Positions 2,868 to 7,496 of a stretch of DNA of 46,604 nucleotides are shown piece after piece. Below the pieces are notes generated by a model that was not told the DNA's origin, ran no database searches, and was given only the letters and a program-made list of their open reading frames with translations. Each line of letters begins with the position of its first letter. Position 1 is the first letter of the stretch. The position numbers and the translations under genes are program-made. The stretch spans positions 1 to 46,604 of the IMG/VR virus record IMGVR_UViG_3300044632_001448; one strand, written 5' to 3'. Source of the DNA: a virus.

Positions 2868-3095
2868 ATGACACTTCCACACGAAGAATACAATAGTCTT
2901 GTAAATACTAAACAATTTTTGTTCGATCTTTTGGATCCAAAAGTTACACCCGGTGTTCCAAAAGCAATAAGAGAACGGGCAAGAGCAGTTTTAAAACATT
3001 ATCCCTTTGACATGACTCTAAGAGAGTTTTACAAAGAAAGCATGCACCACCCTGATTGTGGAATTCATGGTTGGGGAAAAGGAAAAGACGAATGA
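2868..3095 (+). CDS. Conserved small phage protein (FLxDLLDPxxTPxVPKxIRxRA type)
   Basis: 75 residues. The core FLFDLLDPKVTPGVPKAIRE, ending in ARAVLKHYP, is recognisable from many phage and prophage small proteins of unknown function (I recall the BPSL0761-type family; not checked). The start follows tRNA-Glu by TT, the same spacing as behind tRNA-Gly and tRNA-Tyr, and has no Shine-Dalgarno, so tRNA 3' processing would leave UUAUG as the 5' end. The stop overlaps the next start (ATGA). Confidence 0.75.
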   Translation: MTLPHEEYNSLVNTKQFLFDLLDPKVTPGVPKAIRERARAVLKHYPFDMTLREFYKESMHHPDCGIHGWGKGKDE

Positions 3096-3547
3096 ATCCA
3101 AAAGAAATTATTGAAGTAAATGATGAGATTGATGTGTTGGTCGCCAAATATCCTGTTGTATTCAAGAACATGGATAAGTCCTCATACTATTCTCTTCCCG
3201 CAGGTTGGGTTTCCAGAGTTGACAAACTCTGTGCAGATTTGACTGTTCTTCTTGAAGAACATCTGAAGAACAATACTTACAATCCTGATGAATATCCGTT
3301 TACGGTTCTTCAAATTAAAGAAAAGTTTGGTGGACTTCGATTCTACTTTACTTCCCTTTGCGAAGATCATGACTTTCACAAAGAACTGTGCAAGTTGGTA
3401 GATAGAGCCGAAGATGACACATATTCTATTTGTGAAGTAACTGGAAAGCCCGGAAAACTTTGCAAACTTGGAAGCCAGCATCATACCTTTTGTGAAGAAA
3501 TCAGAATTGCCAATGGGTTTAAGGTACTTGGAAATGGAAACTCGTAA
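3092..3547 (+). CDS. Conserved phage protein with GGLRFY and CExTGxPG motifs
   Basis: 151 residues. Contains GWVSRVDKLCADL, QIKEKFGGLRFYF, an acidic segment, then ICEVTGKPGKLCKLGSQHHT near the C-terminus. This pattern (GW..L...C, KEKFGGLRFY, CExxGxPG) belongs to a widespread but uncharacterised phage and bacterial family; the Cys/His positions suggest a small metal site. ATG 3092 overlaps the previous stop (ATGA) and has AAAGGA upstream. Confidence 0.7.
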   Translation: MNPKEIIEVNDEIDVLVAKYPVVFKNMDKSSYYSLPAGWVSRVDKLCADLTVLLEEHLKNNTYNPDEYPFTVLQIKEKFGGLRFYFTSLCEDHDFHKELCKLVDRAEDDTYSICEVTGKPGKLCKLGSQHHTFCEEIRIANGFKVLGNGNS

Positions 3548-4103
3548 TATTATTGATCATTATCATTATTGGAACGATGATGCTATCAGAGCAGATTTGG
3601 ACGAAAAACGTTTTAATTATTCAGTTGTTTGTTGTAATATTGGCAATGATTTTAATATTGCAACCGTTATTCGTAACGCTAATGCATTTCTTGCGAAAGA
3701 AGTTTTAATTTATGGGCATAAAAAATACGACAGGCGGGGGACTGTTGGGACTCATCACTACACCAATTTTCGTCATGTACGCGATATTGATTCTCTTTCC
3801 GTTTTTTTGGATATGCACTCTTCTGGATATGGTGATAAATCCGCAGGAAAAAAAGTCAGAGTAATTGGTATAGATAATGTTCCTGAAGCAAAAGATATCA
3901 ATGCTTATACCTTTGATCCTAATATTCATTATATTATGGTTTTTGGGCAGGAACAAATTGGCATTCCTTCAGACGTTCTAAGTATGTGTGATGATGTTCT
4001 GTACATTCCTCAGTATGGTTCTGTTCGCAGCATCAATGTTGGTTGTGCAAGTTCAATTATAATGAATCAGTATTGTTCACAAATTTACTCCTCGGTGGTG
4101 TAA
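3534..4103 (+). CDS. SpoU/TrmH-type RNA 2'-O-ribose methyltransferase
   Basis: 189 residues, the length of a minimal SPOUT methyltransferase. The three SpoU motifs occur in order: motif 1 NIGNDFNIATVIRNANAF (about residues 35-52, with the conserved Arg and Asn), motif 2 IMVFGQEQIGIP (about 136-147) and motif 3 YIPQYGSVRSINVGCASSI (about 159-177). The family transfers methyl from S-adenosylmethionine to a ribose of tRNA or rRNA. ATG 3534 is chosen because of AAGG 9 nt upstream; it overlaps the preceding gene by 14 nt. Its last 15 nt are also the first 15 nt of tRNA-Gln, so stop and acceptor stem share sequence. Whether the phage tRNAs or host RNA are substrates is open. Confidence 0.85.
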   Translation: METRNIIDHYHYWNDDAIRADLDEKRFNYSVVCCNIGNDFNIATVIRNANAFLAKEVLIYGHKKYDRRGTVGTHHYTNFRHVRDIDSLSVFLDMHSSGYGDKSAGKKVRVIGIDNVPEAKDINAYTFDPNIHYIMVFGQEQIGIPSDVLSMCDDVLYIPQYGSVRSINVGCASSIIMNQYCSQIYSSVV

Positions 4104-4159
4104 AGGTAGCACAAGAGGCTTTGAACCTCTTTGTCTTGGTTCGAATCCAAGCTGAGGAA
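4089..4159 (+). tRNA. tRNA-Gln (UUG), overlapping the methyltransferase gene
   Basis: 71 nt: acceptor TCCTCGG/CTGAGGA, anticodon stem AGAGG/CCTCT with loop CTTTGAA (anticodon TTG), T-stem CTTGG/CCAAG with loop TTCGAAT. Its first 15 nt are the last codons and stop of the SpoU-like gene, so 5' tRNA processing would cut the coding message. Confidence 0.92.
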
Positions 4160-4172
4160 CTAGGAGAATATT

Positions 4173-4424
4173 ATGAAACCAGTAGGAAAATGGGTATTGG
4201 CTAAGTCGCTTATTGGTGGTGAAAAGACCACAGAAGCAGGCATTATTTACAACGAGAAATCAAAGTCAAAGATCATTCCAGCAAAAGTAACTGCAGTTGG
4301 GAATAAACTAACTGAAGATATTAAAGTTGGTGATGTTATTTGGTGGGATTTGAGCAAAATTAAAGATGGCTATGGCGAATGCCATGTAGTCCATCAAGAC
4401 TGGGTTGAATTCGTAGAACGGTAA
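4173..4424 (+). CDS. GroES-like co-chaperonin (Cpn10 fold)
   Basis: 83 residues, slightly short for Cpn10 (about 95). Features that fit: N-terminal MKPVGKWVLAKSLIGGEKT, then TTEAGIIYNEKSK as the mobile-loop/GGIIL equivalent, IIPAKVTAVGNKL as the (P)xGxVxAVGxG strand, and DIKVGDVIWWD as VKVGDxV. T4 uses gp31 in this role to let host GroEL fold the capsid protein. TAGGAGA precedes ATG by 8 nt, so this gene uses a Shine-Dalgarno although it follows a tRNA. It is the last gene of the unit. Confidence 0.7.
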   Translation: MKPVGKWVLAKSLIGGEKTTEAGIIYNEKSKSKIIPAKVTAVGNKLTEDIKVGDVIWWDLSKIKDGYGECHVVHQDWVEFVER

Positions 4425-6193: not shown

Positions 6194-6488
6194 AAACCCC
6201 ACTGCTTTAAGCAGCCATTGCTAATTCGTTAGCAATTATTTTTTGCAACTGTTTATTTGCGACACTTGTTACCCGTGTCGGGTATCTCCTTCTTCATTAC
6301 TTTGCGCCAATCTATTCCTTTCGACCCCGTGACCCGAAGCCTAGGACTTCGGGAAATGCCCCGCTGCTACGAGGACTTGGCTCGCCGTTTTCAGAGGATT
6401 GCAGATTCTCTGACTTAGGCTAATGGAGTCGGGGGGATTCGAACCCCCGTCTTGTACGCATTTCAATCCATTATCAACAATACCATTA
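6194..6488 (-). ncRNA. ssrA: Circularly permuted (two-piece) tmRNA
   Basis: Read on the minus strand the acceptor piece comes first: a P2 strand, then T-arm GGGGG-TTCGAAT-CCCCC and CGACTCC-A ending at 6424. A 95-nt intervening segment (6423-6329) follows. The coding piece then begins GGGGTCG at 6328. GGGGTCG pairs with CGACTCC over 7 bp with a G-U at the third pair, the G3-U70 identity element for alanyl-tRNA synthetase. Downstream are a PK1-like element (ACCCG/CGGGT, 6283-6271, whose loop can pair with GTGTC 6265-6261) and a tag frame from GCA 6260 to TAA 6209-6207: ANKQLQKIIANELAMAA. A shorter tag from GCT 6233 (ANELAMAA) is possible. CTGCT-TAA-AGCAG forms a P5-like hairpin around the stop. 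P2 pairs include CGCA (6306-6303) with TGCG (6460-6457). PK2-PK4 appear absent. Confidence 0.88.
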
Positions 6489-7266: not shown

Positions 7267-7415
7267 TAAAACGGGCATTGAATCCTTTTTCCAAGGCCGA
7301 TCAAGCCTTGGGAAGTATAATACTAGCCCTTCGCGTTCTTCTGAGGTATTCGCGCCCCACCTCTGATTACTGCGGGGTATCAGTTATCCCTAAGCAGCTT
7401 TATAGACCTTCAAAT
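7267..7415 (-). ncRNA. Structured spacer RNA or degenerate tRNA sequence
   Basis: 149 nt between the Met-like tRNA and tRNA-Thr, without a credible CDS. On the minus strand CTGAT/ATCAG encloses CCCCGC, which can pair with the following GTGGGG to form an H-type pseudoknot; GAGGT/ACCTC is an alternative. Nearer tRNA-Thr, GGGC...GCCC encloses a 7-bp hairpin CCAAGGC/GCCTTGG with a 7-nt loop TTGATCG, followed by GGATTCAAT resembling a T-loop. It could be one or two decayed tRNAs or an unknown RNA; the fold is by eye only. Confidence 0.4.
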
Positions 7416-7484
7416 AGCGGATTTGGGAGTTGCACCCAATTCTCCAGATTATGAGCCTAGCGAGTTTCTGTCTCTCTCATCCGC
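7416..7484 (-). tRNA. Atypical tRNA-like RNA with CAU anticodon (Met or Ile2)
   Basis: 69 nt: acceptor GCGGAT/ATCCGC (6 bp), anticodon stem CTAGG/TCTGG with loop CTCATAA (anticodon CAT), T-stem TTGGG/CCCAA. The T-loop is TGCAACT, with G where U55 belongs. The D-arm (GAG-ACAGAAA-CTC) lacks the GG pair. U55 and G18 normally contact each other, so both partners have changed together. It starts 12 nt after a perfect early promoter, so it is transcribed. It may be a working but deviant tRNA or a tRNA mimic. Confidence 0.6.
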
Positions 7485-7496
7485 GATATCTGTAGT

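Follow-up and report, generated by a model that had tools for sequence, protein, structure and literature searches.

A TrmH-like methyltransferase gene of phages that ends inside a tRNA-Gln gene

Protein genes whose 3' ends lie within the 5' part of a tRNA gene on the same strand have been annotated in phage T5 (AY543070), where the HNH endonuclease genes hegD and hegC run 23 nt into tRNA-Gln2 and 14 nt into tRNA-Ser2, respectively, and the end of T5.069 lies 24 nt inside tRNA-Asn. Among the SPOUT methyltransferases, TrmH from E. coli accepts tRNA-Gln as a good substrate and TrmH from T. thermophilus carries at its motif-1 position R41, which is essential for activity (PMC11640301); the Trm3/TARBP1 family is characterized by the lack of a sizeable C-terminal extension (PMC9508554). 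Our literature search for phage TrmH-like enzymes encoded beside tRNAs returned nothing. Here we describe a phage locus in which both themes meet, as the stop codon of a TrmH-like methyltransferase gene is located in the 5' part of a same-strand tRNA-Gln gene. Since T5 genes end inside tRNAs as well, this type of overlap is not new. Different from T5 are the kind of protein, an RNA methylase instead of an HNH endonuclease, and the conservation across dozens of phages of the methylase/tRNA-Gln pair, the acceptor stem of which covaries. Thus, the architecture is of a known kind, and the novelty lies in the family of the enzyme and its tight tie to tRNA-Gln.

The window, by which we mean the complete 46.6-kb virus contig that was analyzed, carries T4-type replication genes (DNA polymerase, PHROG 262; UvsX, PHROG 97; DnaB-like helicase, PHROG 19) and, according to ARAGORN, seven tRNAs and one tmRNA. 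An additional tRNA-like match to RF00005 at 7415-7485 on the minus strand (34.8 bits) has no counterpart among the ARAGORN calls. On the plus strand tRNA-Glu(ttc) at 2792-2865 (ARAGORN, Rfam) is followed by an ORF of 151 aa at 3092-3547, for which Pfam and PHROG searches gave no significant match and whose 3' end overlaps the start of the SpoU gene (3534-4103, 189 aa) by 14 nt. The TAA stop codon of the latter (4101-4103) lies inside tRNA-Gln(ttg) with the anticodon UUG, called by ARAGORN at 4089-4160 and matched by Rfam RF00005 at 4089-4159 with 63.8 bits, and the 15-nt overlap claimed in the earlier note is therefore exact. Read in the protein frame the shared bases 4089-4103 (plus strand) are TCC TCG GTG GTG TAA, codons 186-189 and the stop; read as nt 1-15 of the tRNA they are the 5' strand of the acceptor stem (nt 1-7), nt 8-9, the 5' strand of the D-stem and the first two bases of the D-loop. 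Next in the putative operon is a gene for a GroES-like co-chaperonin of 83 aa at 4173-4424, also on the plus strand (Pfam Cpn10, 2.1e-6; PHROG 3188, 8.7e-8).

The SpoU-type identity proposed for the protein is borne out by Pfam PF00588 (SpoU_methylase; E 8.4e-20, 71.8 bits against a gathering cut-off of 29.7) and by intact catalytic motifs, with N41 and R47 (motif 1, Asn..Arg), E140 (motif 2, Glu) as well as S166 and N168 (motif 3, Ser-x-Asn) being invariant in 26 relatives and R47 aligning with the motif-1 arginine of TrmH. A profile search against solved structures put the TrmH enzymes of Aquifex and E. coli and the TARBP1 domain at the top. The earlier note had asked for a structure prediction and a search against TrmH, TrmL and TrmJ, and these gave an RNA methyltransferase fold: starting from an AlphaFold2 model for which only close relatives had been used (mean pLDDT 75, pTM 0.77), Foldseek returned TrmH (1v2x) as best match with E 4.7e-9, and VIA-align superposed 163 residues on TrmH with Z 17.5 and rmsd 3.0, the TrmL and TrmJ structures scoring lower (Z ~13.6 to 15.9). 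As the rRNA methylase AviRb ties with TrmH at the same Z of 17.5, the fold does not single out TrmH. All curated family profiles score far below their cut-offs, namely TrmH (NF008295, 34.2 of 227 bits), RlmB (TIGR00186, 40.4 of 160 bits), TrmL (TIGR00185, 30.1 of 190.6 bits) and TrmJ (TIGR00050, 21.8 of 167 bits; NF011694, 12.7 of 280 bits). RlmB is the best NCBIfam match (E 2.2e-10) with an alignment that spans only profile positions 75-237 of 240, and a PHROGs search yielded no convincing family (best E 0.013). By profile and fold together the protein is nearest to TrmH and we regard it as a TrmH-like SPOUT 2'-O-ribose methyltransferase with tRNA as its putative substrate. It shares the SPOUT fold, motifs 1-3 and a short N-terminal helix region with TrmH, Trm3 and TARBP1, and like Trm3 and TARBP1 it has no sizeable C-terminal extension, unlike T. 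thermophilus TrmH, which needs an extension of this kind. With only ~20% identity, a score far under the TrmH equivalog cut-off and an occurrence so far restricted to phages it is nevertheless distinct from TrmH. RlmB and AviRb have the catalytic domain in common with it, but they possess a separate N-terminal domain that is missing here, and the RlmB score, although the best in NCBIfam, amounts to a quarter of the cut-off.

The nearest named relatives are annotated as ‘tRNA-methyltransferase’ in the Rhodococcus phages Trina and NiceHouse (ASZ74850, QLF83277) and show 27-31% identity over nearly the full length. Unlike the tRNA-linked gene of the window, they have no tRNA gene within 4 kb, and an RNA ligase gene lies ~1 kb away from them. 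Among cultured phages, INPHARED contains no close relative. Scanning GTDB genomes with a pattern, which reaches only close relatives, confirmed no cellular relative, and for a homologue from a 484-kb phage no relatives were confirmed in IMG/VR. The same database contained 97 relatives of the window enzyme, and the best 80 of them were fetched for the locus counts given below.

In most of these 80 loci a tRNA-Gln adjoins the SpoU gene, and in 36 of them the overlap is kept with the stop codon at the same place of the tRNA and a length of 15 nt (16 nt in a few ARAGORN calls); a relative of the GroES-like gene is present in 31 of the 36. Counting upstream ORFs of at least 60 aa that end inside a tRNA in the same loci, we found 44 among 68 tRNA-Gln, but none among 37 tRNA-Glu, 25 tRNA-Gly and 11 tRNA-Thr and only two each among 19 tRNA-Pro and 26 tRNA-Tyr. 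The overlapping tRNAs comprise 18 distinct sequences, in each of which all 21 tRNA pairs form, with shuffled and slid controls being far below the real pairing. Four of the seven acceptor pairs change on both sides, and the 5' base of each lies inside SpoU codons. The last codons occur as TCC TCG GTG GTG, TCC TTC GTG GTG, TCC TCT GTA GTG, TCT TCT GTA GTG and TCC CTT GTG AGG, each paired with an altered 3' acceptor strand outside the gene, and the protein tail varies with Ser, Phe or Leu as residue 187 and Val, Met or Arg as residue 189. Since the acceptor pairs covary across the gene boundary, it is selection on the tRNA that sets the sequence of the overlap, and the tail of the protein follows. 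Covariation and conservation also rule out that the overlap is an accident of annotation. In one relative the tRNA-Gln (L032:5544-5615) is similar to that of another locus (L031:1818-1889) except for its anticodon arm and T arm, which suggests recombination inside the tRNA gene.

We sorted the junctions of these best 80 of the 97 relatives into states ourselves and used this sorting on the SpoU tree. Besides the 36 overlap loci there are 23 in which the tRNA-Gln starts ~16-18 nt downstream and a conserved hairpin covers the SpoU stop; this hairpin (ACTCTGGGCCYC...GRGGCTTT) is terminator-like and lies just before the tRNA-Gln in L014, L019, L023, L027, L047, L062 and L064. One locus (L012) has a 7-nt spacer. 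Four loci (L020, L029, L033, L063; for example L029:5576-6085) contain a cassette of an HNH gene and a different tRNA-Gln, with nt 8-10 of the tRNA being the HNH stop codon, and L068 has this second tRNA-Gln type alone, so that in five loci the slot of the lost original is filled by a different tRNA-Gln. In L071 and L073 a GIY-YIG gene on the opposite strand is inserted between SpoU and tRNA-Gln; in both a TATAAT box is found right before the tRNA-Gln and the C-terminus of SpoU is altered. The tRNA is partly deleted in L034, whose 88-kb contig yielded no tRNA-Gln, and lost in the L045 group, the SpoU stop having moved in both cases, and six loci (L069, L070, L074, L077, L078, L080) have no tRNA-Gln nearby. 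As L034 and the loci with a lost tRNA keep the SpoU gene, the enzyme can persist without an adjacent tRNA.

The HNH cassettes sit in three separate overlap lineages of the SpoU tree, in which they have replaced the overlapping tRNA-Gln, and the mobile endonuclease seems to take along a substitute that is again a tRNA-Gln. In 52 loci of a separate set of 80 from IMG/VR (L086-L165) this HNH family lies no more than 60 nt from a tRNA boundary, compared to ~10 expected from the local tRNA density, next to many tRNA types and in nine loci with the HNH stop within the 5' part of the tRNA. Such an association with tRNAs resembles that of SegB (PMC13096335).

Regarding transcription, an exact sigma70-type consensus TTGACA-N16-TATAAT (12/12) is located at 2580-2607 on the plus strand upstream of tRNA-Glu and, by its match to the consensus, is likely the operon promoter, with tRNA-Glu presumably on the same transcript as the SpoU gene. 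Sigma70-like sites upstream of SpoU were detected in 31 of the best 80 relatives, mostly 0.7-1.2 kb away, and no promoter-like site was found inside SpoU in any of the 80 loci. Promoter-like sites being present only upstream, co-transcription is likely, and judged from these consensus matches one transcript probably runs through SpoU and tRNA-Gln and, in the window, ends with the GroES-like gene. This is in line with the proposal that the enzyme shares a transcript with both tRNA-Glu and tRNA-Gln. That the 3' coding region of SpoU hides a promoter or an RNA element was rejected because synonymous sites vary normally just upstream of the overlap (0.48 in codons 171-180) and because of the missing internal promoter-like sites. 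A T4-type late promoter motif (TATAAATA) was also considered and occurs in the window no more often than by chance.

Our preferred reading, to which we assign a probability of roughly one half, is that a phage-specific enzyme of the TrmH class acts on tRNA, with the tRNA-Gln encoded at the 3' end of its own gene probably among the substrates, that both are made from one polycistronic transcript and that the overlap itself is mechanical. The UAA at nt 13-15 in the D-arm would supply the SpoU stop codon, the overlap would have arisen mechanically once the tRNA came to abut the ORF, and its sequence would be held because the tRNA must fold. We infer tRNA as the substrate, tRNA-Gln as a preferred one and position 18 as the site. 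A modification of phage tRNAs had been suggested in the earlier note and is plausible in view of the conserved adjacency to tRNA-Gln, the five refilled loci and the precedent of E. coli TrmH, but the persistence of the enzyme in loci without an adjacent tRNA-Gln weakens it. The missed equivalog cut-offs, the structural tie with AviRb, which leaves some probability to an rRNA substrate, the structure model made with close relatives alone and the distant Rhodococcus phage relatives that are not beside tRNAs also count against this reading.

The strongest competitor, which we consider a serious though less probable alternative, is pure genome compaction, with overlap and adjacency having no functional meaning and the pair being kept through kinship and recombination as blocks. 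Phages pack their genes tightly and tRNA genes are natural donors of stop codons, as seen in a survey of 442 tRNAs near HNH genes from 80 diverse phage loci, in which the first in-frame stop ends most often at tRNA nt 10 or nt 15; the length of 15 nt is therefore mechanical and expected as such. In the same survey 23 upstream ORFs of at least 100 aa (~5% of the 442 tRNAs) end inside the tRNA, most commonly at nt 10, and the three T5 genes likewise end in tRNA-Gln2, tRNA-Ser2 and tRNA-Asn. Compaction is further consistent with the 14 changes on the SpoU tree by which overlap, spaced and lost states interchange. Against it speaks that the remaining tRNA types of these loci hardly ever show an overlap and that a replaced slot takes a different tRNA-Gln and not any tRNA, even if a single mobile cassette may be common to the replacements.

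Clearly less probable is that the enzyme modifies rRNA in the manner of RlmB or AviRb, for example in order to adjust or shield the ribosome of the infected cell, and that the adjoining tRNA is incidental. The top NCBIfam match to RlmB and the structural tie with AviRb would fit such a role, but the 189 aa correspond to the catalytic domain plus ~25 residues without the N-terminal domain of the RlmB/AviRb type, the genetic linkage is to tRNA genes and TrmH comes first in the solved-structure profile search.

RNase P cleaves at the 5' end of tRNAs. It follows from the anatomy of the locus that each transcript would either be translated with its stop codon intact or be cut by RNase P at the 5' end of the tRNA, which would leave a methylase message that has codon 185 as its last and lacks a stop. 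With a shared transcript, the SpoU stop would therefore be removed from every message that yields the tRNA. The tie between enzyme and tRNA output put forward in the earlier note is a hypothetical one. A possible rescue partner is the permuted (two-piece) tmRNA encoded at 6207-6484 on the minus strand (RF04321, 76.4 bits; ARAGORN; tag ANELAMAA); permuted tmRNAs have been described from aquatic phages (PMC9004378). One might imagine that maturation of tRNA-Gln generates stop-less methylase messages, that rescue by the phage tmRNA tags the enzyme for degradation and that the enzyme thus falls as tRNA-Gln matures, a feedback that we regard as improbable. Of the 31 contigs with the overlap 25 carry a phage permuted tmRNA, compared to 0 of the 21 spaced contigs, many of the contigs being short, and the feedback would fit this split because with a spacer the cut would leave the stop codon in place. 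However, phage lineage explains the correlation as well as function does, and the tmRNA also occurs in lineages without the tRNA. A strict link between overlap and tmRNA can be dismissed, as the tmRNA also accompanies junctions that lack the SpoU overlap, namely those of L034, of the L045 group and of the HNH loci.

Finally, the idea that methylation shields the phage tRNA-Gln from host anticodon nucleases, also raised in the earlier note, is very improbable. Defences that target tRNAs, and phage tRNAs that evade them, are well documented (PMC10264068, PMC11555353, PMC13096335), but the nearest relatives methylate G18 in the D-loop, the anticodon-loop enzymes TrmL and TrmJ rank lower, neither a nuclease against tRNA-Gln nor a host is known here and nothing in the locus points to a nuclease.

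In summary, a TrmH-like branch that has so far been seen only in phages and is genetically tied to tRNA-Gln offers a concrete enzyme and a candidate substrate with which the modification of phage tRNAs could be studied, an aspect of translation and of the evasion of defences in phages about which little is known. The junction of SpoU and tRNA-Gln is a repeated landing site of homing endonucleases, one of which seems to bring its own tRNA-Gln in place of the original. If the feedback via tmRNA were true, a regulatory circuit would be contained within a single 15-nt overlap. Furthermore, the locus is a case of a conserved protein gene whose last codons are imposed by a tRNA, and the compensatory changes extend beyond the gene.
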